From assembly GCA_958295775.1 (NCBI GenBank), contig CATQHC010000004.1, positions 1-64,000 on the forward strand: a DNA stretch of 64,000 nucleotides. The letters are read 5' to 3'. The stretch is from Chloroflexota bacterium. GTDB taxonomy: Bacteria; Chloroflexota; UBA11872; VXOZ01. The notes under the pieces are model-generated. The model was not told the DNA's origin. It did not search any database and saw nothing but the letters and a program-made list of their open reading frames with translations. Positions 1,560 through 36,328 of the stretch are shown in pieces (the first letter of the stretch is position 1; every line of letters starts with the position of its first letter). Both the position numbers and the translations under genes were made by a program.

Positions 1560-2315
1560 ATGCTAGACGCATTTGACCTCACGGGTAGGACAATCATCGT
1601 TACCGGCGCGAGCCGCGGTATCGGTCGCACTACGGCAGAAGTGCTTGCAGCGGCGGGCGCCAACGTCGTGGCCGTCGCCCGCACGGAGAGCGCGCTGCAA
1701 TTGCTTGTGCAAGACATCTTGGGATCGGGGGGCAAAGCCCTGGCGGTTCGCGCAGACGTAAACGTGCCGGAAGACGCGGAGATGCTGGTGGAGCGCACCA
1801 CCCAGGCGTTTGGCAGCGTGGACGTGCTGGTAAACAATGCGGGCGAGTCCGGGCGGCACGGAGCCATGAGCGAGACCACCGCTGCCGATTGGAACGACCT
1901 GCTGGAAAACAACCTGCGCAGCGCGTTTCTCTGCGCCAAAGCCGTGTTTTCGGCCATGGAGCAGCAACAACGCGGCAACATCATTAATATGGCAAGCATC
2001 AGCGGCCAAAACGGCGGCCAAAGCGCGCGCGTGCACTACGCGGCGTCAAAAGGCGGCATGATCGCCTTCACCAAAGCGCTCGCCCGGCAAATGGCGCCCT
2101 GGGGCCGCGCCAACAATATCGCGCCCGGTCAGATTGACACCGGCTTTGCCCGTATACCGGAAGACCGCTTGCGCGCCGTGCTCGACCGCACGCCGCTGCA
2201 ACGCCTCGGCAAATCGGAAGATATCGCCCATGGAGTGCTCTATCTCGCCAGCGATGCGTCGTCCTTCATCACCGGCCACACACTCGCCATCAACGGCGGG
2301 ATACTGATGGACTAA
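1560..2315 (+). CDS. Short-chain dehydrogenase/reductase (SDR), FabG-like
   Basis: This 251-residue classical SDR has the cofactor motif TGASRGIG (residues 15-22), the structural NNAG (92-95), and catalytic Ser146, Tyr160 and Lys164 in YAASK. Arg-41 after the second strand suggests NADP(H) may be preferred. The C-terminal GHTLAINGG is typical of FabG/glucose-dehydrogenase-like members. The start at ATG 1560 is preferred to the TTG at 1542 because GAGAAGGGA lies just upstream of it. The substrate cannot be told; polyol, 3-oxoacyl and sugar substrates are all possible in this family. Confidence 0.9.
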   Translation: MLDAFDLTGRTIIVTGASRGIGRTTAEVLAAAGANVVAVARTESALQLLVQDILGSGGKALAVRADVNVPEDAEMLVERTTQAFGSVDVLVNNAGESGRHGAMSETTAADWNDLLENNLRSAFLCAKAVFSAMEQQQRGNIINMASISGQNGGQSARVHYAASKGGMIAFTKALARQMAPWGRANNIAPGQIDTGFARIPEDRLRAVLDRTPLQRLGKSEDIAHGVLYLASDASSFITGHTLAINGGILMD

Positions 2316-2405
2316 TTGGGCTGCACTCTGTAGCCTATGTCTTCACGACGCATTCAATCTGCGTCTCGCGCTGAACAACACACTTCCTTAATAGAGCGCT
2401 CCGCT

Positions 2406-3056
2406 ATGGCAGCCCTCGAATCGTTCGCTATCGTATTTGCCGCGTCGTTCTCCATCGGCCTTTCAGGCGCCATGTCGCCCGGGCCGCTGACTATCTTTGT
2501 GATGGGGCAGAGCGCCCGTTACGGCGTTTTGGCCGGCCCGCTCGCGTCGCTTGGGCACGGCTTGCTGGAAGTCGCGCTCGTCGCGCTGCTGTGGCTCGGA
2601 CTGGCCCGCGTTCTGCAATGGGACCCTGTGCTGGCCGTGATTGGCGTGATCGGCGGCCTGGTGATGATCTGGATGGGCTGGCAGATCGTGAGCGGGGTCC
2701 GCCGCAAGGGCGCGCGGCTAGCAGCATCTTTCTCCGACCGGCGCGCTGATAACCCTATGGTCGGCGGGGCCGTGCTCAGCCTCGCGAATCCCTACTGGTC
2801 GTTCTGGTGGGCCACCGTGGGCATCTCCACCATGACAACCCTCGCGTTACCGCGCGGCATACTCGGTCTCACGGCGTTCACCATCGGCCACGTCGCCAGC
2901 GACTTCTTCTGGTTTACGCTCGTTGCCATAGTCTTCGCTACCGGGAGACGCTTCATCACGGATCGGGTGTACAGAGGTGCGCTCTACCTCTTTGGCATCC
3001 TGCTGGCGCTCTTTGGGGTCTACTTCATCTGGCAGGGCGCCACGATATTCCTCTAA
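2406..3056 (+). CDS. LysE-family translocator
   Basis: A polytopic membrane protein of 216 residues with about six hydrophobic segments and the family motif SPGPL near residue 24. LysE/RhtB proteins export amino acids or similar small metabolites using the proton gradient. ATG 2406 is chosen because the 23 residues ahead of it are polar and unlike the family, and the first membrane segment begins straight after MAALESF. It follows the SDR gene by 90 bases on the same strand, so co-expression is possible. Substrate unknown. Confidence 0.87.
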   Translation: MAALESFAIVFAASFSIGLSGAMSPGPLTIFVMGQSARYGVLAGPLASLGHGLLEVALVALLWLGLARVLQWDPVLAVIGVIGGLVMIWMGWQIVSGVRRKGARLAASFSDRRADNPMVGGAVLSLANPYWSFWWATVGISTMTTLALPRGILGLTAFTIGHVASDFFWFTLVAIVFATGRRFITDRVYRGALYLFGILLALFGVYFIWQGATIFL

Positions 3057-3156
3057 GAGCCGCTCTAAGGTCATGTATGCCATGAAGCAAGCGGATATAC
3101 TGAACTGAGAGAGGGTGAAAAGCGTTCAGCCGCCACAAACGGAAGGAGCGATCACG

Positions 3157-4530
3157 ATGGCCAGCAAAACGGTGAACAACGCGCGGCGCACGCCGCCCGG
3201 CCCACGTGACTTCCTGGGCTTGCGCACCATTGACGCGATGAAGCGCAATCCTCTGCAACTCATGCTCGACCTCCACAATACCTATGGGGAAATCGTCCAC
3301 CACACGCTGCTCAACGCGCCGGTCTACTTCTTCACCCATCCCGATCATGTCGGTCACATCCTCCAGGATAACCACCGCAACTATCAGCGCGGCCGTGACT
3401 ACAGAAGGCTCCGGCGGCTGCTCGGCAACGGCTTAGTAACCAATGACGGCGCATCGTGGCTCAAGCAGCGCCGCCTCATGCAGCCGGCCTTCCACCGCCG
3501 CCGTATCGCCGGCTTTGGCGAGACGATGGTCCAAGAGACACAGAAGATGCTGGCGCAGTGGGAAGGTCCAGCGACAAGCGGCTCCCCGCTCGACGTTTCG
3601 AGCGAGATGATGCGCGTGACGCTCAATATCGTGAGCCGCGTGATGTTCGGCGCGGCAGTCCAGGACGACGCCGAGCGGCTCGAGCCGCTCGTTACGGTGG
3701 CGCAACGGGAGGCCCGCAAGCGTCTCTACGTGCTGGTTGACGTGCCGGAATGGATACCCTTGCCGGGCAATCGCCGCTCCAGGAGCGCCCGGCAGACCAT
3801 CGATGCGGTGGTAACGCGCATCATCGCGGCCCGCCGCCAGTCGGATACGCCCCAAGAGGATGACCTGCTTTCCATGCTGTTAGAGGCCAGAGATCCGGAC
3901 ACCAATGAACCCATGGACGACGATCAACTGCGGGATGAGGTACGCACCATCTTCCTCGCCGGACACGAAACGACAGCCAACGCGCTCACGTGGACCTGGT
4001 ACCTGCTCGCCCGCAATCCCGCCGCCGCTGAAAAACTGCGGGCAGAGCTCGCCCAGGTACTGAACGGACGGTTGCCCACCGTTGCCGACGTGCCCCAACT
4101 CCCCTATACGAAGATGGTCGTCGAGGAGTCCATGCGCCTGCTGCCGCCGGTTTGGAGCATTTCCCGCGAGGCCATCGACGCTGATGAAATCGGCGGGTAC
4201 CGCATACCCGCTGGCGGCGCCGTCATCATGAGCCAGTACCTAACGCACCGGCACCCCGACTTTTGGGAGGAACCTGAAGCCTTCATCCCGGAGCGCTTTG
4301 CGCCGGAGCAGGCAAAGGAGCGTCACCGCTTTGCCTATTTTCCCTTTGGCGGCGGGCCGCGCCTCTGCATCGGCAACAACTTTGCCATGCTGGAGGCGCA
4401 ACTGTTGCTCGCCACGATCGCCCAACGGTACGAGCTTGACCTCGTCCCCGAGCATCCGGTCGATTTGGAGCCGCTTATCACCCTACGCCCCAGACACGGG
4501 ATGATGATGACGCTCCGTCCGCGTGCATAA
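3157..4530 (+). CDS. Cytochrome P450
   Basis: A 457-residue P450 with no N-terminal membrane anchor, so soluble and of bacterial type. The I-helix oxygen-activation motif AGHETT is at residues 268-273, the K-helix ExxR is Glu324-Arg327, and the heme-binding stretch FGGGPRLCIG has the axial thiolate Cys404. The start ATG 3157 follows AAGGAG at good spacing; the GTG at 3115 is an unlikely alternative. No ferredoxin, ferredoxin reductase or fused reductase domain lies nearby, so electrons must come from elsewhere. The substrate is unknown; the overall look resembles fatty-acid or terpenoid hydroxylases of the CYP102/110-like branch. Confidence 0.93.
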   Translation: MASKTVNNARRTPPGPRDFLGLRTIDAMKRNPLQLMLDLHNTYGEIVHHTLLNAPVYFFTHPDHVGHILQDNHRNYQRGRDYRRLRRLLGNGLVTNDGASWLKQRRLMQPAFHRRRIAGFGETMVQETQKMLAQWEGPATSGSPLDVSSEMMRVTLNIVSRVMFGAAVQDDAERLEPLVTVAQREARKRLYVLVDVPEWIPLPGNRRSRSARQTIDAVVTRIIAARRQSDTPQEDDLLSMLLEARDPDTNEPMDDDQLRDEVRTIFLAGHETTANALTWTWYLLARNPAAAEKLRAELAQVLNGRLPTVADVPQLPYTKMVVEESMRLLPPVWSISREAIDADEIGGYRIPAGGAVIMSQYLTHRHPDFWEEPEAFIPERFAPEQAKERHRFAYFPFGGGPRLCIGNNFAMLEAQLLLATIAQRYELDLVPEHPVDLEPLITLRPRHGMMMTLRPRA

Positions 4531-9376: not shown

Positions 9377-10501
9377 CTACTCGCGCAGGGCAGCCTCCAC
9401 GCCATATTGCACAGTGACTTGTTTACCAATACGCGCTGCTTGATACGCGGCCTCGATAACCTGCAGGACATGAAGCGCGTCCTCAAGCGTCACGGCGGGA
9501 GGCCGATCGGTGTGGATTTCCTCAACAAAGCGCCGCATGATGTCGTAGGACCAGCGGTGGCCGCCGTAGACCGCCATCGGTGTCGGCGTGTAGGTGATGC
9601 TCTTTTGCGGCGCGCCGGACCAAGTTGGCGCTTCACTTGTGATTTCCAACTGATTCCCGCCCACGGGCATCCAATTGGCCCAGCCATGCATGCCGCGATA
9701 GACGAAACAGGAATCATAGCCACTCGCCAGGGGCGGCTGCGCATACGCGGCGTGCAAACTGCCCAAAGCGCCGTTTTCGTACTCCATCGCGACCACAGCC
9801 ACGTCTTCAAGAGGGTCGTCGATGTATCCCACCGGACGGCCTACAAGCGCCTGCACGGACTTGACCTCGCACTGCACGAGGTGCCGCATGAACTCAATGT
9901 AATGTCCGCCCAGCATATGGAGCACCCCGCCGCCTTCGTTGGCAGCGGTGAACATGAAGTGCGTCGGCTCGCGGCTGCCGGGCCGCACTTGCGTGGTCAC
10001 CAGACGGCTCTCCAGGGAGAGCGGCGCGCCAAAGACGCCTTGATCGATTAATTGCTTCAAGTCCTGCATTGCGGGATGAAAACGCCAGGGATACCCTGCA
10101 AGCACTTTGACGTTATTGCGCCGCACGGCCTCCACCAGCCGTGCCAGGTCGGCAGCCGTGCGGGCGAATTGCTTCTCCACAAAGAAGTGCTTGCCGGCTT
10201 CCGCCAGCTTGATGCCGGCAGCGGGTATTTCGTTTGCCGGCAGCACAACGCAGGCGAGCGCGAAGTCTTCTTTCTCCAGCAATTCATCAATGCTCGCGTA
10301 GACCCGCGCGGCAGGATCGTGCGCCTGCGCCAGATCCAGCAGAGAAGAGTCGCTGTCCTCGCAGTAGGCGACGATCTGGACACCCGGAATCTGCTGGAAG
10401 GTATGGATGTATCCCGGCGACGGCCGCGCCGGGTCCAGGCTGCCTACGTGTGGATGCCGGAGACCGATCATGGCAACGCGCAGCGGTTTCTCTGGCGACA
10501 T
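9377..10501 (-). CDS. Gfo/Idh/MocA-family oxidoreductase with altered EKP motif
   Basis: A 374-residue protein with an N-terminal Rossmann domain and a C-terminal alpha/beta substrate domain. The usual GxGxxG is replaced by GLRHPHVG, and the usual EKP of the family is EKQ (in FVEKQFART), where Lys normally supports catalysis. A GGHYIEF segment carries the active-site-region His. Members oxidise or reduce sugars, inositols or their derivatives with NAD(P). An AAGGAAAGAG precedes the ATG at 10501. It lies between the two solute-binding genes on the same strand, pointing to uptake and oxidation of a carbohydrate. Confidence 0.87.
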   Translation of the reverse strand: MSPEKPLRVAMIGLRHPHVGSLDPARPSPGYIHTFQQIPGVQIVAYCEDSDSSLLDLAQAHDPAARVYASIDELLEKEDFALACVVLPANEIPAAGIKLAEAGKHFFVEKQFARTAADLARLVEAVRRNNVKVLAGYPWRFHPAMQDLKQLIDQGVFGAPLSLESRLVTTQVRPGSREPTHFMFTAANEGGGVLHMLGGHYIEFMRHLVQCEVKSVQALVGRPVGYIDDPLEDVAVVAMEYENGALGSLHAAYAQPPLASGYDSCFVYRGMHGWANWMPVGGNQLEITSEAPTWSGAPQKSITYTPTPMAVYGGHRWSYDIMRRFVEEIHTDRPPAVTLEDALHVLQVIEAAYQAARIGKQVTVQYGVEAALRE

Positions 10502-10624
10502 TGCTCTTTCCTTTCCCTAAGCTTATCTTAGTGGAATTCTACCTATTCCCATTTGATGTGGATTCCGCCCCGGGACTTTACCTTGAATGTAGCAGTGTTC
10601 AAGATGCTTGAATGTCGATCAATC

Positions 10625-10652
10625 GTAGGGGCACGACATGTCGTGCCCCTAC
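10625..10652. repeat. Perfect 28-base palindrome
   Basis: GTAGGGGCACGACA and its exact reverse complement abut at 10638/10639. It lies in the gap between two minus-strand oxidoreductase genes. There is no T-run on either side, so it is more likely a dispersed intergenic palindrome than a classic terminator. A cruciform or transcript hairpin with a tight loop is possible. Confidence 0.75.
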
Positions 10653-10722
10653 CGTTCAGCACTGCCTTGCGAACGGGCTTCACCTACGCAGGTCCGCAAA
10701 TCCATTCGCAGTCTCCTTTATG

Positions 10723-11772
10723 TCACGTGGCCGTAATCAACCGTGCCGCCTTGTCACCAAACGGAAAGTCCACGCGCGCGGACCCACGACGAAACGACTC
10801 CCGCATGGCGATTGCAATCTCCAAGGCAGCGTAGCCGTCCTCGCCGTTGCACTCCGGCTCCTTATCGGTTTCCAAGCACTGGACCATGTCGGCAACCGCT
10901 TGGGCCGTGGGGCTGGGCAACCGCTGGGGACGCGGAAACGCTTCCCGCAGCGGGCGGTCGGCTTTCGTATTTCCCGCGCGCCGCCAGAGTTCAAACTCTC
11001 TCCCGCCGTCCAGGGCGCGAATGCGCCCCCGCTCACCGATGATGTCCCATTCTTGCACCGCCGCGCCAGTACCCATCATGCGCAAGTACCCGCGCACGCC
11101 ATTGCGAAACGCCACGTAGGCATTCCCTCCGTACGCATCCTTGTCGTCAGTCAGGGCTGCAGGATTGCCAATCTCGCCCACGAGCCAGTCCACCGGCGCG
11201 TCACCGGCAAAATAGCGCAGCAAGTCCACCCAGTGGCTGCCGTCATGGGATAGGGTGGAGCCGCAGTAGCCGGTGACTTGAAGTACCTCGCCGATTGCGC
11301 CCTGGTCGATCAACTGTTTGGCTTTTCGATAGAAGGGATGCCAGCGGCGCAGGCAACCAACGCCGAGCTTGACGCCGTGGCGGCGGCACGCGGCAACCAC
11401 TGCCTCAGCCTCTCCCAGCGACCACGCCAGCGGCTTTTCGGCAAAGATCACCTTTACCCCTGCCTCGGCACACGCCGTAACCACCTCCGGCCGCTCCTCG
11501 GCGCGGGTGCAGACGCTGACTATATCCAGGTTCTCGCGCTCCAAGAGCTCGGAATGGCTTTCATAGACGCGCTCCACGCCCCAACGCTGCCGGTAGGCAG
11601 CGCGTTTCTGCGAGTCGACATCTGCGGCGGCAACCACCTCCACCCGCGGCTCCTCCATATAGGCGGCGGTATGGGCAAACGGCAGGATGACGCTGGTGTT
11701 GCCCTGCACTTCATCGTCGATGGTGCTGCCTATGCGGCCGCAGCCGATGACCCCTACCCGATACGGTGCCAC
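10723..11772 (-). CDS. Gfo/Idh/MocA-family oxidoreductase
   Basis: The protein has the dinucleotide motif GVIGCGRIGS near the N terminus and the canonical family EKPLAW segment. It also has GSHWVDLLRYF in the substrate domain, where the His-Asp pair sits near the active site. It is about 349 residues if it starts at GTG 11772, which has GAGAGG at suitable spacing; an upstream GTG at 11802 would add ten residues. It probably oxidises a sugar or cyclitol. It is one of two such enzymes between two solute-binding genes and is separated from the other by a palindrome. Confidence 0.9.
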   Translation of the reverse strand: MAPYRVGVIGCGRIGSTIDDEVQGNTSVILPFAHTAAYMEEPRVEVVAAADVDSQKRAAYRQRWGVERVYESHSELLERENLDIVSVCTRAEERPEVVTACAEAGVKVIFAEKPLAWSLGEAEAVVAACRRHGVKLGVGCLRRWHPFYRKAKQLIDQGAIGEVLQVTGYCGSTLSHDGSHWVDLLRYFAGDAPVDWLVGEIGNPAALTDDKDAYGGNAYVAFRNGVRGYLRMMGTGAAVQEWDIIGERGRIRALDGGREFELWRRAGNTKADRPLREAFPRPQRLPSPTAQAVADMVQCLETDKEPECNGEDGYAALEIAIAMRESFRRGSARVDFPFGDKAARLITAT

Positions 11773-16496: not shown

Positions 16497-19400
16497 ATGA
16501 TATCAATGCCCCACGTCGATGCAGCCCTCATCCTGCCGCTATTCGTCAGCTTCCTGGCATTGCTCTGGGTGTCGTATTGCGGCGCTGTTCTCGTTCGCAT
16601 TTCATGTAGAATCCGCGAGTGGTCGTTCCTCGCGCCGCTCGGTTTGGCAGCCGGTTGCGCCATTTTCCTTGTGTGCGCCAACCTTGTCGGTAAATTCGGC
16701 TCCGTCCCCTTAGCCTTCGGCGCCGCCTTTCTCGTAGTCAGCGCGCTCGGCATCTATGCTTCCATCCGGCTACGGCCCCGCTCTTGGCACATCCCCTCTG
16801 GCCGCGTTGCCATCGCTGTCTCTGGCTGGACGCTCTTGGCGCTCGCCCTCACTTACGTCTGCCTCGCGATCCGTAACCAGTCATATTTCTTTGATTTCCC
16901 AACACACATGGCCCTCGCCACCACCATCGCGCGCGACAACCTGCCCGTGCGCAACCCCTTTTCGCCCATGTTGCCGTCGGGCTATCACTATGGCGCCGCG
17001 CTCCTAGTGGCCGCGCTCAGCCGCGGCGCCGGCCTGCCTGCCGTCACCGGCTACCAACTCCTCGCGGCCTTGCAGGGCGCAGCATTGTTACTCTTGGTCT
17101 TCTCCTTAGGCCGCGAAGCCGGAAGACACGCGCTCTGGGGTCTCGCGTGTGTCATCGGCGCTCTCTCTTTCGGCAGCATTGTGCTCTGGCGGCCGTTGGC
17201 CGCAACTCCAGCGGCACTCACTTCCCTACTGCAAGGGGACTTCTCCCAAGAAGTGCTCTTGCAGTTTCCCAGTCTGCGCGAGAACATTGAGTTCGCCTAT
17301 CCAATTCTGTCATTCTCCACCGACCTGCTCTGGCTCTTGATCTACCCCCATCGCCTTGCCAGTTTTTTTTCGGTAATTGCGTTGGCAGTGCTGCTGGTAG
17401 GTCCGGGGAGAAGACGCTGGGGCCATGCGAGCTTGGCCTTGGCCGTATGTCTCGTTGCCGCAGTCTCCCTTTTCGATGAGACGCTACTGCCGCTGGCGCT
17501 GATGGCCCTCGCGTGGCCGCTCCTCTCGCTTCGCCGCAAACCGCAGCGATTCCTCCTTTGGTCTGGCGGCATTCTTGCCGCGGTCTTCCTCGTCGCCATC
17601 CAAGGCGGCTCCGTCACGGATGCGCTCTCAGGCGCGACCGGCACCAGCCTTCCCTTTGCCTTGCATTCAGCGGGAGAAGTGGTCCGCTCAATAGTCTTGG
17701 CCAAGGTGCTGCCTCAGGGATGGCTCTGGCTGCTACCGCCGCTGCCGCTCGCCGCCAGCGCCCTCATCTTCATTTGGAAACGCTGGTGGTTAGGGCTCAT
17801 GCTTTGCGCTTTTGGCTTCGCAGGCTACGTCGGCTTCCACATCCTTGACTTTCAAGGAGAGGCCGGTACCGGAGAATTCGCCCGCGTTGTGAATCTCGCC
17901 TTTCTCGCGCTCGCCTTAGTCGTGCCCATGGCTGTGGCCCGCCTGCTGCGCGCTTCGCCGCCCTGGCGAACTGCGCTGGTTGTGCTTGCGCTTTTGCCTG
18001 TTGCCATACCTTCCCTCGTACAACCGACGGTGAGCGTCATCTCGCATCTGGAAAAAGGTGTCAAGCTGCTCCACCCCAAGACTGAGGAGCTAGTGTACAC
18101 ACCACAGATCACTGACCCCGCCGTAACCCGCGAGCTGTTTCATGATCAAGTCGCCTATGCAGACCTTTCACGGATACTCTCCGCCGACAGCGTCGTGTTG
18201 ACCCAGCATCCCGTATCATTCGTGATCGCAACCGGAATCCCCGCCGCGTTCGCGCCGACCTCCGGGCTCATCTTCTTTCCTACGCACCACTACATTCCGG
18301 ATCCCGCGTTCTATGACGCCTATTGGCGGCTAGATCCCACAGCGTGGCGTTCACTTGGGGCTACTGCCGTCTTGTATGATCGGAAGACGTACACCTCGCT
18401 GCCGCCGTCCGTGCGCTCTCAGGTTGAAGGCAGTGGTTGGTTTGTCACGCAATATGACGAGAATGGGTTTCTCCTGCTCGCGCCCACCGAGGCCTTCTTC
18501 CGCTATGGGACTGCTGCTCCCAGTACATTCTCCGCGCTCCGATCGACACTGACACCGGCGGATACCATGTATTTGTCACCCGACCTGCCCTACGGCGTGG
18601 GCCAGGCGCTTGTTCATCTACTTAGCGATCATCCCGTCACCGGCCTGATCCCCGATCCAAACGCACATGCCTGGATGGATCTAAACCGGCCCACCGGACT
18701 TGCAGCAGAATCGGCAGTCTGGCAAGCGCGCGGCCATGAGGAAGCGCGACTCTTAGGAATTAATCCCGAGGCTGCACTGTGGCAGTGGCGCGCACCCGGC
18801 GAAAGCGCGGGTGTCTACCCCAATACCACAATTCCGGCATTTGCTCTCATCAAGCTTACGCAAGGCCAAGCGATTGGACTGCAAGCCAACGACACCAGCC
18901 TGGCCATGAACGACACAGTTGTAAGCACTGCGCATGCCCGGTTCCGTTCGCTCTCAGTCTTGCTTGCCGGACACCCAGGGAGCGTCGTGCGGCTCTGCGG
19001 TCCCGCCGGCTGCGTGCAACGCAATCTGGACGGAGGCGCATGGTCGCTGAGGCTGCCGCTCACCCAGGAACTGACGCAGTTTGAATTCTCCGTCGTGCAA
19101 GGTGAAGCCTTCATTGCGGGCACGCTTGGATACGGCGACCCGCTCTCTGCCGTCCGGACAACCGGAGTTGTAATCCGACCGCGGCTGCATGAGAATACCA
19201 TTGAAGTTGACGTGAGCTACTTCAATCGCCTGGGATGGACTCTTGGCAACGGCGTTGCCTGGCAACTTTTCCGCGCCCCCGACACGAGGGAGAATCCGAG
19301 TCTTTCGCGCCCAAGCCAGCTCATAATCTTTGGCGAGCGCGGTGACGTGGGCTTTGCGCTCAGTGCTGACGGCAGCCATTCGGAACACAATTTCACCGGT

Positions 19401-19616
19401 TCGCCGCCGCTTCTTGAAGAGAGACGCGCCTTGCCTGATGGTGAGTATCACCTCTATCTGAGCTTTCTGACGGAGCATTTTGGGGCCGCCGATCGAATAC
19501 CTGCCGCTCGCTTCACTGTGCAGAGCGGTTCTTTGGATTCGGTAGTTCTGCTGCCCCAAATCGCGCAACTCAGTTTCGGCGCAGAACAGTCGGAACAGTT
19601 TGAACTCGGGGAGTAA
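16497..19616 (+). CDS. Large polytopic membrane protein, GT-C-like, with extracytoplasmic C-terminal region
   Basis: The 1039-residue protein has about 12-14 hydrophobic segments in the first 520 residues and then about 500 soluble residues, presumably outside the membrane. The segment FFDFPTHMALATTIARDNLP followed by NPFSP and a YHYG motif resembles the first periplasmic loop of GT-C glycosyltransferases and of the Chloroflexi/archaeal YYY (DUF2298-like) membrane proteins, where an Asp in that loop is catalytic. It may transfer sugars from a lipid carrier, but that is inference. The C-terminal part includes beta-rich stretches near residues 850-1020. The start is uncertain between 16497 and 16506. 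Confidence 0.6.
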   Translation: MISMPHVDAALILPLFVSFLALLWVSYCGAVLVRISCRIREWSFLAPLGLAAGCAIFLVCANLVGKFGSVPLAFGAAFLVVSALGIYASIRLRPRSWHIPSGRVAIAVSGWTLLALALTYVCLAIRNQSYFFDFPTHMALATTIARDNLPVRNPFSPMLPSGYHYGAALLVAALSRGAGLPAVTGYQLLAALQGAALLLLVFSLGREAGRHALWGLACVIGALSFGSIVLWRPLAATPAALTSLLQGDFSQEVLLQFPSLRENIEFAYPILSFSTDLLWLLIYPHRLASFFSVIALAVLLVGPGRRRWGHASLALAVCLVAAVSLFDETLLPLALMALAWPLLSLRRKPQRFLLWSGGILAAVFLVAIQGGSVTDALSGATGTSLPFALHSAGEVVRSIVLAKVLPQGWLWLLPPLPLAASALIFIWKRWWLGLMLCAFGFAGYVGFHILDFQGEAGTGEFARVVNLAFLALALVVPMAVARLLRASPPWRTALVVLALLPVAIPSLVQPTVSVISHLEKGVKLLHPKTEELVYTPQITDPAVTRELFHDQVAYADLSRILSADSVVLTQHPVSFVIATGIPAAFAPTSGLIFFPTHHYIPDPAFYDAYWRLDPTAWRSLGATAVLYDRKTYTSLPPSVRSQVEGSGWFVTQYDENGFLLLAPTEAFFRYGTAAPSTFSALRSTLTPADTMYLSPDLPYGVGQALVHLLSDHPVTGLIPDPNAHAWMDLNRPTGLAAESAVWQARGHEEARLLGINPEAALWQWRAPGESAGVYPNTTIPAFALIKLTQGQAIGLQANDTSLAMNDTVVSTAHARFRSLSVLLAGHPGSVVRLCGPAGCVQRNLDGGAWSLRLPLTQELTQFEFSVVQGEAFIAGTLGYGDPLSAVRTTGVVIRPRLHENTIEVDVSYFNRLGWTLGNGVAWQLFRAPDTRENPSLSRPSQLIIFGERGDVGFALSADGSHSEHNFTGSPPLLEERRALPDGEYHLYLSFLTEHFGAADRIPAARFTVQSGSLDSVVLLPQIAQLSFGAEQSEQFELGE

Positions 19617-27513: not shown

Positions 27514-28275
27514 ATGGCGAGAGAAGGCATGTCTCGAAAAGAGAGCATTTCCGTTTTCTTCCCTGCGTACAACGATGAGCACACCATCGGCACGCTCGTG
27601 AAGCAGGCCGTCACCGTGGTAACTGATCTTGGATTCACTGACTACGAGATCATTGTCATCAACGACGGCAGCGAAGACGGCACCGCTGCACTTCTCACGC
27701 GACTTGAAGGCGAAGTAGCGCGGCTGCGCGTGATAACGCATGTGAAGAACCGAGGCTACGGTGGCGCGCTCCGGAGCGGGTTTGAGGCCGCAAGCAAAGA
27801 CTTGGTCTTCTACACCGACGGTGATGCCCAATACGACCTAAACGAGCTACCAGTGCTCCTCGATGAACTGACGGATGAGGTTGAAGCAGTTAATGGGTAC
27901 AAGATTTCCCGCAGCGACGACTGGGTCCGCGACATAGTCGGCAAAGTGTATCGCGGCACACTGCGCCTGCTGTACAAGACACCAATCCGGGACATTGACT
28001 GCGACTTCCGTCTCATACGACGCCATGCATTCGAGCCGGTAGAACTCACGATGGATAGCGGCACGATCTGTTTGGAGCTTGTTGCCAAGCTATCTGCCAG
28101 CGGCGCTCGCTTTGCTGAAGTCGGAGTCCATCACTACGCGCGGCAATACGGTCGGTCTCAGTTCTTTCGTCCGCGGCGCATCATCCAGACGCTGGTGGAT
28201 GACTTGCGGCTTTGGTTTCAGATGCGCCAGGTGCGACGGGCCTACGTTGCACGGGAAGAGCGAGATATTCCTTAA
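27514..28275 (+). CDS. Family 2 glycosyltransferase, dolichyl-phosphate mannose synthase-like
   Basis: A 253-residue GT-A enzyme without membrane segments. It opens with SVFFPAYNDE, has VINDGSEDGT and the metal motif in YTDGDAQYD, and later DCDFRLIRR. Such enzymes move a sugar from a nucleotide donor to a polyprenyl phosphate, feeding the GT-C-like enzymes nearby (28616-30892). ATG 27529 is an alternative start. It precedes the GT-C-like gene by 340 bases on the same strand. Confidence 0.9.
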   Translation: MAREGMSRKESISVFFPAYNDEHTIGTLVKQAVTVVTDLGFTDYEIIVINDGSEDGTAALLTRLEGEVARLRVITHVKNRGYGGALRSGFEAASKDLVFYTDGDAQYDLNELPVLLDELTDEVEAVNGYKISRSDDWVRDIVGKVYRGTLRLLYKTPIRDIDCDFRLIRRHAFEPVELTMDSGTICLELVAKLSASGARFAEVGVHHYARQYGRSQFFRPRRIIQTLVDDLRLWFQMRQVRRAYVAREERDIP

Positions 28276-28615: not shown

Positions 28616-30892
28616 ATGAGTCGATTCCAATCTACCGACGCCGCACCACTCTCAAGCTTCCATCCATCTCTGGAAGACGCACCGCCGCACACGCCACGCT
28701 TGATCGGCGTGCTCTTTCTCTTTTTCTTCTTGCTGTACGCCCTCACCGGGGGCGGTCATGAGTACAGCCCCGACGGACGTTTTGCGCTCAATATGGGACG
28801 AAGTCTCATCCTTGATACGGAGCACAAGTACTTGCGAGAGGAGTACCGCGGGCTCGCCTGGTGGGGAATCGGACTGCCGCTGCTGTTCCAGCCTACCTTG
28901 CTCATCGGAGCCGCCTTAGATTACTTGATGCCCCAGAAGGATTCATTTACGCACGAAGGAAGGACGTACGTCTTCGGAGATTACCCGGTGCTCGCAACCC
29001 GGGGCACGCCGGACACCCTCAGTACATTACACATTCCCTTGAATGACAGGCCTGCCAGGGGGCTCATAATCTTCTCCTACTTAGGGACGTCTGAAAACAT
29101 CGAAGATGGCACACGAATCGCCATAGTCTCGCTGGACACGGTACCCGTTGGGCGCTTCTTCGGAGAAATGCTCGCTGGGCGCGACACGGCTGAGTGGGCG
29201 TATGACCGCCCGGACATGGTAGGAAAAGTGGCGCACGCGAAAGCAGACGCCGCGGCGAGCAGAATTGGCATTCCCAATTCCAACGTCTACGTTTCCCAAT
29301 TACTATTTCCGCAGAGTTTGAGCGTCAAGAGTGTCACGATTCAATACGTTGCCCAAGAAGGCAATCTGTTCGTATCCTCCCTCAGTCTCATCGATTCAGA
29401 GACCAATCAGCCCATGATGATCGGAGCGAGCGGAAGGATCTGGTCGGAGCGAGAGAACTCCGACTTCTTCACACGTCTGATCGCACTCTTCACCAACGCC
29501 TGGGTCACGGCTTTGAATGCGGTGCTCGTGTTTCTCATTACGCGGCGGCTGGGCTATCACAGCTATGTTGCACTTGCCCTGACAATTCTGTTTGGCCTCG
29601 CAACCATTGCGTGGCCCTATGCAAAACACGATTTCGCTGAGCCGGGGGTGACCCTCGCGCTCCTTGGCACTGTGTACTTCCTATTGCGCGGACTTCAAGA
29701 CCAGCAACTGACCTGGCTGCTCATTGGAGGCTGCGTCATTCTTGGGGGCATTGGCGTCAAGTATGTAACGGCGATGAACCTTGCCGTCTTGGCGCCCATT
29801 CCGGCTCTCATTACGCTGCAAGACAGCCGGCGTTCTTTACAAATGGTAGGGTCAGCAATACTGCGCAGCGCCGTATTCCTGGCGCCTTTAGCTATACTCG
29901 GCTCGGCGGGTCTCTACGCGCTCGTGTTCGTTTTCGACGTACGCCCGCCGGTGCTCACGAGTTTCCCGGAAAGGTTTGCCGCCTGGCTTGACCTTCCCAT
30001 TTGGATCGGCCTCTATGGCAACTTGCTGAGCCCGGGAAAGAGCGTATTCCTCTATGCGCCGCCCCTCATTCTCGCCCTCTTTGGCAGCTTACCGTTCATT
30101 TCGCGCCACAAGTGGTGGGCTTTACCCTTCATAGGTATTCCACTGCTCTATCTGCTGATTTACAGCAGCAAGGGCGTTTGGTACGGAGGGAGCAGTTGGG
30201 GGCCTCGCTATCTGGTGCCGGCTGTGCCCTTCTTCCTGGTAATGGCTGCGCCCATCCTTGAGCGAGCTTTTTTTGATAACGGAGTTCGCGAGTTGCGGGC
30301 GGCTATAGTTCTTGGTCTGGCAGGAGTAGGCGTACAGCTAATTGCCATTGCCAATCACTTTGACTGGTACTTTGGCCTGCTGCGCTCCCAAATACTCCCG
30401 CAGATACCGGAAAGCGGGGCTTTTCTCGCTGGGCGCGTAGGCCAAGCCTACTACGCGCACCCTACGCACTTGCCTTGGGACAAAGAGAACGTCCTCTACC
30501 TTTTTGCGGCGCCATTCTCACCCCTATTCGGCCACATTTGGATGTTACTGGCAGACGCAGTGAGTTTGTTCTTGCCCTCCAGGCCGGAGCTTCTTCTTAC
30601 CATTCTCGGTCGCCCGCCATGGACGGTCTTAGGGGTGGCAATTTGGCCCCAGCATCCCGAATACCTGCTGGGTCTTGACTTTTGGTCCATGATTCTGTGG
30701 CGGGAATTCACCAACCACACGTTCTTCCTCGTAGTCGTGCTGCTTTTGGTGCTGGCTATGCAGGCAGCAATCCTCTACTGCTGGTCATGGCTGAGCCAGC
30801 GTTTTGAGCTTCCCTTGCGGCTGTTCTGGAGCGGCATTGCGGGCCTGGCGACGTTTTTCATACTGTTCGACGTCGCCCACATTCTTCAGTAA
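28616..30892 (+). CDS. Polytopic GT-C-like membrane protein
   Basis: The 758-residue protein begins with a cytoplasmic tail, then a membrane segment (LIGVLFLFFFLLYAL). After it comes GGGHEYSPDGRFALNMGRSL, with an acidic residue pair in the first outer loop as in ArnT/PMT-like GT-C enzymes. A 200-residue soluble insertion (about residues 80-285) is followed by about ten further membrane segments. It likely transfers a sugar from a polyprenyl-phosphate donor outside the membrane. The GT2 just upstream could make that donor. The acceptor is unknown. Confidence 0.65.
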   Translation: MSRFQSTDAAPLSSFHPSLEDAPPHTPRLIGVLFLFFFLLYALTGGGHEYSPDGRFALNMGRSLILDTEHKYLREEYRGLAWWGIGLPLLFQPTLLIGAALDYLMPQKDSFTHEGRTYVFGDYPVLATRGTPDTLSTLHIPLNDRPARGLIIFSYLGTSENIEDGTRIAIVSLDTVPVGRFFGEMLAGRDTAEWAYDRPDMVGKVAHAKADAAASRIGIPNSNVYVSQLLFPQSLSVKSVTIQYVAQEGNLFVSSLSLIDSETNQPMMIGASGRIWSERENSDFFTRLIALFTNAWVTALNAVLVFLITRRLGYHSYVALALTILFGLATIAWPYAKHDFAEPGVTLALLGTVYFLLRGLQDQQLTWLLIGGCVILGGIGVKYVTAMNLAVLAPIPALITLQDSRRSLQMVGSAILRSAVFLAPLAILGSAGLYALVFVFDVRPPVLTSFPERFAAWLDLPIWIGLYGNLLSPGKSVFLYAPPLILALFGSLPFISRHKWWALPFIGIPLLYLLIYSSKGVWYGGSSWGPRYLVPAVPFFLVMAAPILERAFFDNGVRELRAAIVLGLAGVGVQLIAIANHFDWYFGLLRSQILPQIPESGAFLAGRVGQAYYAHPTHLPWDKENVLYLFAAPFSPLFGHIWMLLADAVSLFLPSRPELLLTILGRPPWTVLGVAIWPQHPEYLLGLDFWSMILWREFTNHTFFLVVVLLLVLAMQAAILYCWSWLSQRFELPLRLFWSGIAGLATFFILFDVAHILQ

Positions 30893-31861: not shown

Positions 31862-34800
31862 TCACACCGCAGCAGGCGCTACCGTTTGGGATTCACTCCG
31901 ACTTCGGCTTGTCGCGTAGGCTAGAGCGCACAGTGCGGCGGACAGCCAGAACCAACTCGCCAAGTCCGGCAGAAAGTAGTAGTTGTCCAGCATGCCGTGG
32001 GTCACGGCGGCAAGTTGGCTGCCGGCGAGTCCGACGCCTAGCGCCCGCACCTCCGTCACTCTATTGCCGTACGCCATACGGTGGGTGAGCATGAAGAAGC
32101 GCGCCAGGAAAACGGCGACGAATACAAGCCCGACGCTGCCGAGGCGCAGCCAGAAGTCGAGGAAGAGGTTGTGCGGGTGCGAGAGATTCGGCTCGCGCCA
32201 TGCCGCTGGATTCAAGTATTGGGCGTGCACATACAGGTAATTGTCCAGACCGACGCCAGTAATGGGATAGTCCGCAATCATCTGAAGTGAGGACTGCCCT
32301 TGCAGGAGCCGCATGTGCGTGGACGTACCGGGTTCCGCGCTGACAAGCGACCGTACGCGCTCCGGCCCGAACGTCACACCGCCGGCAAACAAGAGCGTGA
32401 CAACCAGCACCACGCCGCCAACAACGCGAATTCGCTGACCGCGCTCCGGCAAGATCACCCATATAAAGAACAGCGCCATAACGAAAGCGGCAATCCAGCC
32501 CGCGCGGGAAAAGGTGCCCAATAGCGTGAGGGCGAGAATACCGGCGAGCGGCCAAGCCACGCGCGCGGGCCAGAGCTTGAAGAGGCCCGCTGCCACCACA
32601 AAGGGCAGCGCTCGTTCCAATATCATCGCCAAATGGTTCGGCGAGGGATAAAGTCCCGACAACCGTATCACTCCTTCCGCTCTCACCACTTCATTCGGGT
32701 CGAGAACCGGCTCCAACAACGCTGCCCCGGCGGCAATGACCGCGCCCGCGACAAATGCCTGGATCAGTCGCCACGCCTGCTGCCGGTTCTCTATCAGCCA
32801 GCACGCAACCATGAACAACAAAACCGGCACTATAATGGTCTGCCGCAGTTCACGCAGGCTAAAGACCATGTAGTGAGAGAACAGCAGCGAGACCGCGCCA
32901 ATCGCGACCAAACCGACGGCCCACCAGAAGAAGCTGCGCCGTGGTACCGGCAAGCGCTGTTGCAGATACATATGCACGATGAGCGATCCGGTGAGCAAGA
33001 GCGCGAGTATTTCGGTCACAGGCAGGGCGAACCGGCCGGCAGACGGTATTATTACTGCCAGGGGCAGGGTCGCTGCCACAGCGTACAGCAGCGCGCGGGG
33101 CCAGACCAACGCGGCGAGGGCGAGCAAGCCAATGAGCATGAGTTGTGCTGTCGTCCCCGGCGCAAGCCACAGCAGCCCCGTAAGCAGCAGGAGCAAGACA
33201 AGTCGTGCTAGGTCATGCCGCCAGATGCCGCTGGCGGTCCATCCCAACCCCTTACTGACCAGCCGGTGCGACCAGCGCCGCCGCCCTAGCCAACCCGCCA
33301 GGACCCAACCAGCGGCAGCAAGGAAGCCGGCATAGAGTCCGCCAACAAGAACGTAAGGCCACAGCGGCCGCTCCCGCACAACAACAATTGCGTCGATGTC
33401 AACACCGGCATCGCTTGCGAGCGGGTTGCGCCGGCCTGTGAGTTCGATCTCTACGCTGTGCTCGCGGTCCGGCAGCCGGTCAGCCAGCAACACCTCTTCC
33501 TGCCAGCGGTCTTCGGGCGCGTAGAGGTCCAGTTCGGCCTGTCCGCCGGAATCTTTCGGCAGGCGGTGCGCCAGCGACTGCGAGCCGTTGATGCGTACCA
33601 GCGCGATGCCGGTATCGGGCCCTCTGCGTACGATCACTGAGACCGCGGTCCCGCGGAAACGAAAGCGCAGACGGGCGTCGCCCACGGGGCTGCCCCGCGC
33701 CTGTCCTAGTGAGTAGCGTTCATCATCGATTTCAATCCAATCGCCTTCCCACGCCAGGGCCGGATGCGACTCTTGGTGATATCCTGGCCCCAGGACAGGC
33801 GGCGCGCGCATCACCTCGCGCAACGCGGTCAGCACGGGTCGCGGCGCAAAGTCCGCATCCACGATGGCAAAGTGCTGCGTCGGATCATCGGGGTGCGACT
33901 GGGGCCAGTAGAAATGCCAAAGGTTGATCATCGGCATCCAGGGCCACTCACGCGCAGCCCGCTCCATGCCCTGCACGGTATAGCGGGCCTGCGTGGCCTC
34001 GGACACATTTCCCCAGCTCGAGGGCTCTCCTTGCCAGTCTGTTGGCAAAGCCACCCAGCCGTACTCACCCGCCCACACCGGTTTCGCCGCGTCGCCGTTC
34101 CGCACCATTACTTCGCGAAAGAGGACTGCCCGTGAGAGATTCGTATGGTGCGCTGCCACGTAGCGATCGTCCGGGGCATTCCAAAGCCCATAGGAGGCGC
34201 TGCTCGCCACATCGAAGTAGGGGGCGCCCCCGTGCGCATACATCCCCTCGAGAAAGAGCAGTTCGCTGAGATTCTTCGGCCCTGTCTCGATCGTTGGCGC
34301 AAGGAGGGCGGCCACAATAACCGCCTCCGGATTTGCCTCCCGAATCCGCTGGGAGGCTACTTTGAGCATCTCCACGTATGCGGCCGGATCGGGGTTGCCC
34401 GGCCACCATTCGCCAAAGAGATTGGGCTCATTCCAGATCTGAAAAATCTCCACGTCGCCGCGGTAGCGCTGCGCGACCGTATAGGCAAAGTCACCAAAGT
34501 CCTCAAGCCGTTCCGGCGGGCCTTGTTGGCGCCCGTCATCAGGTGGCTTGCCGTCAGCATAGGCCCAGGGCGGGGGTCGTTCGAGCCGCGCAATAATCTT
34601 TAAGTTGTGCTTCTTTGCCAGCGCGACCAGGCGGTCATACTTCAGCCACGCGCTTTCCTGGGCCAAGTCGTCCCAGTATCTTCCTTTTAGAGGACGCTCG
34701 ATGCCTTGCCAAGGAAATACTTGCCGGATGTAGCGGAAGCCGGCTTCCTCCAACAGCGCCATGCCGCGCTCAACCTTTTCCCAATCCAGCTCTTGGTCGA

Positions 34801-34966
34801 AGCGCGTGTTGATACCGTACCGATATACGTCAGCATTGTGGACCGGAAAGACCGATTCTCGTCCGTAGGCGACGCCGGTTTCAAACCAGTACCGATAGCC
34901 CAGCAGGGCGAGGGTTGCCCCCACAAGCAGTACAAGATAGCCGAGAAAGAAGTAGAACCGCACCAC
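31862..34966 (-). CDS. Glycoside hydrolase/O-antigen-ligase fusion membrane protein
   Basis: This 1034-residue protein combines parts that are usually separate. Residues 5-25 form a membrane anchor. Residues about 45-390 form a clan-A glycoside hydrolase barrel with IWNEPN (acid/base Glu180) and WAGEYGW (nucleophile Glu301). Residues about 395-530 form a beta-sandwich-like module. After residue 535 about 13 membrane segments follow, with the O-antigen ligase/Wzy_C signature: GLYPSPNHLA (771-780), FSRAGW (819-824), GVGLDNY and SHPHN (929-933). It could both trim and polymerise or ligate a surface glycan. The start is a GTG; a second GTG follows it directly. Confidence 0.8.
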   Translation of the reverse strand: MVRFYFFLGYLVLLVGATLALLGYRYWFETGVAYGRESVFPVHNADVYRYGINTRFDQELDWEKVERGMALLEEAGFRYIRQVFPWQGIERPLKGRYWDDLAQESAWLKYDRLVALAKKHNLKIIARLERPPPWAYADGKPPDDGRQQGPPERLEDFGDFAYTVAQRYRGDVEIFQIWNEPNLFGEWWPGNPDPAAYVEMLKVASQRIREANPEAVIVAALLAPTIETGPKNLSELLFLEGMYAHGGAPYFDVASSASYGLWNAPDDRYVAAHHTNLSRAVLFREVMVRNGDAAKPVWAGEYGWVALPTDWQGEPSSWGNVSEATQARYTVQGMERAAREWPWMPMINLWHFYWPQSHPDDPTQHFAIVDADFAPRPVLTALREVMRAPPVLGPGYHQESHPALAWEGDWIEIDDERYSLGQARGSPVGDARLRFRFRGTAVSVIVRRGPDTGIALVRINGSQSLAHRLPKDSGGQAELDLYAPEDRWQEEVLLADRLPDREHSVEIELTGRRNPLASDAGVDIDAIVVVRERPLWPYVLVGGLYAGFLAAAGWVLAGWLGRRRWSHRLVSKGLGWTASGIWRHDLARLVLLLLLTGLLWLAPGTTAQLMLIGLLALAALVWPRALLYAVAATLPLAVIIPSAGRFALPVTEILALLLTGSLIVHMYLQQRLPVPRRSFFWWAVGLVAIGAVSLLFSHYMVFSLRELRQTIIVPVLLFMVACWLIENRQQAWRLIQAFVAGAVIAAGAALLEPVLDPNEVVRAEGVIRLSGLYPSPNHLAMILERALPFVVAAGLFKLWPARVAWPLAGILALTLLGTFSRAGWIAAFVMALFFIWVILPERGQRIRVVGGVVLVVTLLFAGGVTFGPERVRSLVSAEPGTSTHMRLLQGQSSLQMIADYPITGVGLDNYLYVHAQYLNPAAWREPNLSHPHNLFLDFWLRLGSVGLVFVAVFLARFFMLTHRMAYGNRVTEVRALGVGLAGSQLAAVTHGMLDNYYFLPDLASWFWLSAALCALAYATSRSRSESQTVAPAAV

Positions 34967-35115: not shown

Positions 35116-36072
35116 TTAGGCGCTCAGCACCTCACGCGTATACCACTCCACGAAGCAAGCGACGCCCTCGCGAAATGTCATCTGGGGAGCAAAACCAAGC
35201 AACTGCTCCGCCCTGCGAATGTCGGCAAACGTGCGCGGCACATCACCGGGCTGCGGCGGCAGCATGATTCGTTCCGCGGTGATGCCCAACACGTCTTCGA
35301 TTGTGGCAATCATGTCCCGCAAGAGCACTGGGTGATTGCCGCCAAGATTGATCACCATATAGGGAAACACGTTGTGCAGGGCCGCTACAACGCCAGCGAC
35401 AATGTCGTCTACGTAGGTATAGTCGCGCCCACTGGTGCCATCGCCATAGAAAGGGATCGGTTCATTTTGCAGCAAGAGGCGCACAAAAGTGTAGATAGCC
35501 AAGTCGGGGCGTTGGCGCGGGCCGTGCACGTTGAAGAAACGCAAGCACGTCACCGGCAGGCCGTATGTATGGGCGTACACGTGGCAGTAGAGTTCGGCGG
35601 CGCGCTTGCCCGCCGCGTAAGGTGAGATTGTCGTACTGATGGGATCGTCTTCTGAAAAAGGCACCTTGGCATTGAGACCGTACACGGAGGACGACGAGCC
35701 GAAAATAAACTGCTCCACGTCAAAGTCGCGCGCCATCTCCAGCATGTTGATGGTGCCTTCTCCCAGCACCCGGGAGTAGAGCGCAGGCTCTTTCAAGGCC
35801 ATGCGTGCATTGGCTCGTGCCGCGAGATGGATCACGCGCTCAGGCGCCGCTTCCGTGAAGATGCCGCGCAAACCGGCGGGGTCCAGAATGTCCGCCTCGT
35901 AAAGCCGGAAGCGCGGGTGGTTGTTGACCGCAGCGAGATTGCGACGCTTGCGGTGCGGATCGTAGAACGAGTCGAAGTTATCCACCACGCAGACGTGGTG
36001 GTTCTCGCGCAAGAGCCGCTCCACGAGGTGCGAGCCAATAAAGCCCGCACCACCGGTAACGAGAATCTTCAT
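35116..36072 (-). CDS. NAD-dependent sugar epimerase (UDP-glucose/UDP-glucuronate 4-epimerase type)
   Basis: The 318-residue extended SDR has TGGAGFIGSH at residues 6-15, catalytic SSSS and Tyr152/Lys156 (YAAGK), and RFFNVHGPRQRPD and YGDGTSGRDYTYVDD, which bind the nucleotide sugar. The RQRPD block is common in UDP-glucuronate 4-epimerases, but substrate cannot be fixed by eye. ATG 36072 is taken over 36105 because the Rossmann strand starts there. It lies 150 bases upstream of the ligase fusion gene on the same strand, so it may supply its sugar precursor. Confidence 0.88.
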   Translation of the reverse strand: MKILVTGGAGFIGSHLVERLLRENHHVCVVDNFDSFYDPHRKRRNLAAVNNHPRFRLYEADILDPAGLRGIFTEAAPERVIHLAARANARMALKEPALYSRVLGEGTINMLEMARDFDVEQFIFGSSSSVYGLNAKVPFSEDDPISTTISPYAAGKRAAELYCHVYAHTYGLPVTCLRFFNVHGPRQRPDLAIYTFVRLLLQNEPIPFYGDGTSGRDYTYVDDIVAGVVAALHNVFPYMVINLGGNHPVLLRDMIATIEDVLGITAERIMLPPQPGDVPRTFADIRRAEQLLGFAPQMTFREGVACFVEWYTREVLSA

Positions 36073-36328
36073 AGTGCCTGGCTGGGTTTCAGTGTAGTCC
36101 GACAACTTGCGCCCATTATAGCGAGGTTTGCCGTATGGGACTCGCCATGAACGCAGGCCGGCGCGGCATGGATCAAGAGCGATGGGAAACTAGGCGTCTA
36201 CGCGATGGGCAAACGCACCCAAGCGAGCGAAAGCGGCAACAAACGAGAAGATCTGACTGGCAAATACATCAGTCCTGAATCCCGCCAGGCGCCTGACTCA
36301 CGCATAGGCACACACTCCGAAGCGTGCG

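Follow-up and report, generated by a model that had tools for sequence, protein, structure and literature searches.

In Pseudomonas aeruginosa, the synthesis of Psl involves PslG, a GH39 endo-glycosidase of solved structure (PDB 4zn2, 5bx9 and 9g17). BcsZ (cellulose) and AlgL (alginate) differ in fold and polymer from the Chloroflexota protein described here, and unlike it, they are not fused to a transferase. Both have been compared with PslG as degrading enzymes needed within a synthesis machine (PMC6813494); in the same work, PslG was attached to the inner membrane in Pseudomonas, and its E165Q and E276Q double mutant made little Psl. The need for a glycosyl hydrolase in polysaccharide synthesis clusters is called elusive in the Pseudomonas literature (PMC9075953).

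The second relevant group is the Wzy_C superfamily (Wzy, PglS, TacL), together with WaaL (PDB 7tpg and 7tpj), which stands alone and has lipid A-core as its acceptor. A proposed catalytic histidine and substrate-guiding arginines were described for WaaL and PglS (PMC12800693), and TacL of pneumococcus is a Wzy_C protein that functions as a ligase in cells without lipid A (PMC5727136). Both halves of the protein reported below are known, while the fusion, its age and its graded catalytic loss appear undescribed as far as the literature was searched; a search that reached few subscription papers yielded no published description of such a fusion.

The window, i.e., the whole analyzed stretch of 64,000 nucleotides from a Chloroflexota contig (CATQHC010000004.1), contains the fusion gene on its minus strand at positions 31862–34966, encoding 1034 amino acids plus a stop codon from a GTG start. 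These coordinates had been given correctly in the original prediction, where the strand was absent. The reading frame was uninterrupted, with 1052 codons open when the 18 codons upstream of the GTG are included. A promoter scan returned nothing above chance, and a terminator scan gave a weak excess of terminator-like sites within the gene.

An AlphaFold2 model of the protein was built with 60 sequences (pLDDT 91.1, pTM 0.84). From the N- to the C-terminus, with all features on the minus strand, it comprised a membrane helix of residues 2–29 (34880–34963), also evident from hydropathy, a barrel of residues ~45–390 (33797–34834), a beta-sandwich module of residues 395–530 (33377–33784), and about 15 helices from residue 536 onwards, compared with the approximately 13 predicted originally. 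The second membrane helix spans residues 536–562 (33281–33361), and split relatives break after this helix. The sandwich, which had been anticipated from the sequence, was retained in most relatives. Compared with carbohydrate-binding module families, the sandwich of the window protein matched none in Pfam, and CE2_N was marginally under the cut-off in one relative.

PslG was the best solved structure match of the barrel (Foldseek E 1.8e-18; Z 33.1 with 9g17), sharing its fold at 20% identity, and the N-terminal part is accordingly a glycoside hydrolase fold, as had been claimed. The PDB sequence search reached PslG with E 7e-9 for the single protein and 8e-32 for the 60-member family profile. 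The sandwich was shared in part, the alignment reaching model residue 504, and the likeness extended to the N-terminal hydrophobic segment and inner-membrane association. E180 (34427–34429, motif WNEPN), the putative acid/base, was aligned to PslG E165, and E301 (34064–34066, motif GEYGW), the putative nucleophile, to PslG E276; the window protein possesses both the glutamate within N-E-P and that on the later strand. The Pfam GH39 profile (PF01229) yielded 11 bits against a cut-off of 26, so the assignment to that profile did not hold, and the barrel, of GH39 type within clan GH-A, is named PslG-like rather than Pfam GH39. In contrast to PslG, which is a separate protein, the PslG-like unit is here fused to a WaaL-like transferase, and its glutamates are lost in many relatives.

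The first alignment comprised 15 sequences, among them the window protein, and each of these had both glutamates. The clade of the window protein, its neighbor families and most stand-alone GH39-like neighbors retained the complete motifs WNEPN and E-[YF]-G-W. Judged from its intact glutamates, the window copy probably cuts glycan.

The membrane domain of residues 585–1026 (31889–33214) gave a Pfam Wzy_C match (PF04932) at residues 809–950 (32117–32542), with E 1.4e-23 and 83.8 bits against a cut-off of 31.7. When this part was modelled separately (pTM 0.88), WaaL was its best structural match (7tpg, Z 25.2 over 380 residues, Foldseek E 1.1e-6), followed by the SEDS proteins RodA/FtsW with Z 12–15. 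In the PDB sequence search, WaaL 7tpg was matched with E 2e-11 by the single protein and E 5e-11 by the profile. The Wzy_C/O-antigen-ligase motifs of the original prediction were thus recovered, and the membrane fold, the arginines and the outer-loop histidine are shared with WaaL and the Wzy_C superfamily. Residues R768, R785, R886, D908, H932, H990 and D994 were invariant in all 60 fusions compared, and the position of R821 was occupied by R or K in 53 of them. R886, D908 and H932 (SHPHN motif) lie in the large outer loop of residues 867–943 (32138–32368), with R886 and H932 opposite 7tpg R265 and H313 in the profile alignment.

The designation of O-antigen ligase in the strict sense was not upheld. 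The NCBIfam RfaL equivalog model gave 48.9 bits, far under its cut-off of 277, and LpxC was not detected in the genome of the window (95% complete), although the search did give matches in control genomes that have lipid A. Lipid A is therefore probably absent as an acceptor, in contrast to the case of WaaL, and a strict O-antigen ligase acting on lipid A was rejected for this host. A genome lacking LpxC may nevertheless encode a ligase, since Wzy_C ligases such as TacL work without lipid A; the sequence of the transferase domain would be compatible with either a polymerase or a ligase.

By helix count in the model, the segment of residues 30–535 with barrel and sandwich and the H932 loop were placed on the same side of the membrane. 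Most of the positive charge of the short loops was located in those assigned to the inside. The topology derives from parity and the positive-inside rule, some of the counted helices being short, and it predicts that the barrel and the transferase active site share the outer face.

The full fusion was present in four other genomes of the genus at 73–79% identity, with a piece in a fifth, fragmented genome. A match over nearly the whole profile was obtained in at least 51 of 301 Chloroflexota genomes, a lower bound, as it counts the matches listed, with two candidates per genome scored. Approximately 19 family-level groups carried the fusion, counting one start-truncated member and one reported in two pieces. 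In a GTDB-wide scan, both halves occurred in one open reading frame in 76 of the 80 loci formed by the best 80 of 455 relatives. An assembly join of two genes, which would make the fusion an artifact, has nothing in its favor and a practically negligible probability: the same fusion recurs in independent assemblies across these groups, and the four same-genus genomes together with the at least 51 Chloroflexota genomes refute it. Chance is likewise excluded, because the same-genus genomes carry the full fusion at the identity given above.

With one exception, the best 80 of the 455 relatives were Chloroflexota or named Chloroflexota groups by title, including Anaerolineae, Caldilineae, Thermoflexus, Roseilinea, Chloroheliaceae and unclassified Chloroflexota. 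The exception, locus L055 (JAJDUK010000074.1), belongs to a metagenome-assembled genome titled Alphaproteobacteria; its fusion is nested in a Chloroflexota clade, and it is probably mis-binned or mislabelled. Plasmid records contained GH relatives in unfused form only. The fusion is likely to be restricted to Chloroflexota.

In the tree of transferase domains, all fused ones formed one clade (84 rows, SH-aLRT 99), separate from the Wzy_C genes that stand alone in these loci. The three split members (L043, L125 and L126) were located inside this clade, each near a GH-plus-sandwich gene. In L126 (5058–9796), the order was the GH-sandwich gene, a PMT_2-type glycosyltransferase gene and the transferase gene. 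The simplest reading is one ancient fusion with later splits, the direction not being fixed by the counts.

Unfused pairs were observed in other bacteria. In Paracoccus, two polysaccharide clusters on plasmids each contained a GH39-like gene, its two glutamates intact, alongside an unfused 'O-antigen ligase' gene; this arrangement is consistent with, but no proof of, hydrolase and transferase working together. On plasmid pDAETH-4 of Deinococcus aetherius (NZ_AP026564.1, 7117–11647; L139/L143), a gene for a 1048-aa GH39-like protein with both glutamates was followed directly by an 'O-antigen ligase family' gene, and a phage tail tape measure gene was present on the plasmid. This protein is possibly a tail depolymerase, in which case a phage would perhaps first cut and then alter the host surface glycan.

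A gene for an NAD-dependent sugar epimerase/dehydratase (35116–36105, minus strand; Pfam Epimerase E 2e-57) is located 149 bp upstream of the fusion on the same strand. This neighbor had been pointed out originally, and its recurrence supports the observation: among the best 80 of the 455 relatives, 28 of 76 related loci had an epimerase of the same cluster close to the fusion. In the same set of 80, further conserved neighbors, which like the epimerase are glycan genes, included a G5/PD40-repeat lipoprotein (21 loci), a second Wzy_C protein (18), GT4 glycosyltransferases (16), GtrA (11) and LPG_synthase_TM (6), often as overlapping or almost touching genes. A separate GH39-like gene, mostly encoding a lipoprotein, lay directly before the fusion in 20 loci of this set, and in all 20 pairs at least one of the two proteins carried both glutamates.

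In the genome of the window, the GH39-like lipoprotein partner sits elsewhere (C2:1121918, L122). There, an NYN-domain gene, a xylose-isomerase-like TIM-barrel gene and the GH39-like lipoprotein gene stand in a row (L122, 7243–9962); in related genera, similar NYN and TIM-barrel genes stand ahead of the GH39-fusion pair. The host genome contained three Wzy_C genes, two strong Wzx-family matches and two Wzz matches. The fusion gene of the window lies outside any large polysaccharide cluster, with about 50 kb between it and the nearest Wzx-family match on the contig. Located 1 kb from the 3' end of the fusion on the other strand, a 758-aa membrane protein (28616–30892) with a sub-threshold PMT_2 match follows a GT2 gene (27514–28275) and may belong to the same glycan pathway. 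Elsewhere in the window, a 1039-aa open reading frame (16497–19616) had no Pfam match at E 0.001.

Across the family, the catalytic residues of the barrel were frequently lost. Both glutamates were present in 41 of 81 fusions and one or both were gone in the remaining 40, with E301 being Glu in 44. At least eight changes of catalytic state were required on the tree. The Asn preceding the acid/base, a clan signature, was replaced by Asp or His in 41 of 60 sequences. Residues W187, P181, N182, G303 and W304 were invariant despite the loss of glutamates. For the GH half, dN/dS ranged from 0.08 to 0.17 in three closely related pairs whose dyad was incomplete, as low as in intact pairs and not above that of the transferase half. 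The barrel is held under purifying selection even where its catalytic residues are lost.

In loci L054 (partner gene at 2286–3539) and L073 (partner gene at 9806–11059), the stand-alone GH39-like partner was the protein without the nucleophile (SAYGW, WHEPN). The fusions of these two loci keep both glutamates, unlike their partners, and L060 shows the reverse arrangement.

Tabulation of E180 and E301 across the family led to the rejection of a universal trimming function. Because E180 and/or E301 is missing in 40 of 81 members, trimming or transglycosylation is not the shared function; half of the relatives are barred from the classical retaining mechanism, so cleavage is not general to what the protein does. 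Of the originally predicted enzyme that trims or transglycosylates a glycan and joins it at the same site, the placement of both sites on one face was retained as a predicted topology, and trimming as a common activity was abandoned. Since the transferase residues are invariant and the glutamates are not, the shared constant job is taken to be lipid-linked glycan transfer.

We consider the fusion to be a membrane glycan-assembly enzyme that combines WaaL/Wzy-type transfer with a PslG-like unit handling the same glycan, the window copy probably cleaving it (probability about 0.58). Acting at the outer face of the cytoplasmic membrane, the C-terminal domain would be a polymerase or ligase that transfers a lipid-linked glycan, presumably one carried on undecaprenyl pyrophosphate. 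The PslG-like unit (N-terminal helix, barrel and beta-sandwich) would be inserted in the first outer loop of the transferase, which would put the barrel over the outlet, where it would act on the transferase's own glycan. The barrel of the window protein probably functions as an endo-glycosidase that relies on E180 and E301; it would edit or limit the chain during synthesis or release, in a role likened to the requirement for PslG in Psl synthesis. A barrel without catalysis would be retained as a glycan-holding module in about half of the relatives. This reading is favored by the PslG and WaaL matches, the invariant transferase residues, the predicted common face, the single clade of fused transferase domains with its split members, the glycan genes around the fusion, the Paracoccus pairs and the low Psl output of the PslG double mutant. 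The position of the window gene outside a large polysaccharide cluster, the loss of glutamates in half of the relatives and the low GH39 score count against it.

The same losses are open to a further explanation, namely that in every family member, also in the window protein, the barrel serves as a glycan-binding pseudo-enzyme, with the glutamates of the window copy being relics or serving binding and the transferase doing all the chemistry. The five invariant residues and the low dN/dS of the GH half, alongside the 40 of 81 fusions deprived of one or both glutamates, favor this explanation; however, the full motifs kept by the window's clade, the neighbor families and most stand-alone GH39-like neighbors make it unlikely. 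Transglycosylation is possible in principle for retaining enzymes, and the barrel could cleave or transglycosylate the glycan, after which the transferase would attach what results, at the same site, to an acceptor. GH39 enzymes work by a retaining mechanism (PMC11912335), and both active sites are predicted on one face of one chain. The repeated loss of catalysis in the family renders such cutting and joining decidedly improbable. WaaL/Wzy-type enzymes also use pyrophosphate-linked donors, which the product of a glycosidase would not be.

If the transferase were a mere anchor, the barrel would work independently on surface or foreign polysaccharide, in turnover, release or feeding, as might be suggested by the similar GH39-like genes present as separate lipoproteins in the same genomes. 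This is slightly more improbable still: conservation is stricter for the transferase residues, which an anchor would not need, and the retention of a barrel that has lost catalysis contradicts a purely hydrolytic role.

The preferred reading of a glycan-assembly enzyme may be extended, tentatively and with less than even probability, to a single-chain editor on the outer face, in which nascent lipid-linked polymer from the Wzy/WaaL-type site passes through the PslG-type cleft, is measured and is cut where glutamates remain, so that one polypeptide sets length; this extension is rather doubtful. If it were true, a cleft without glutamates would be a ruler or guide, and nature would have provided a graded set of hydrolases, active through dead, on one transferase.

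The ancient fusion, its split versions and the separate pairs in other bacteria together indicate the transferase as the working partner of the hydrolase. The repeated catalytic loss in a domain that is kept allows cleavage to be told apart from glycan holding, with active and inactive versions occurring naturally for comparison. The fusion also offers a way to approach how Chloroflexota assemble their surface glycans.
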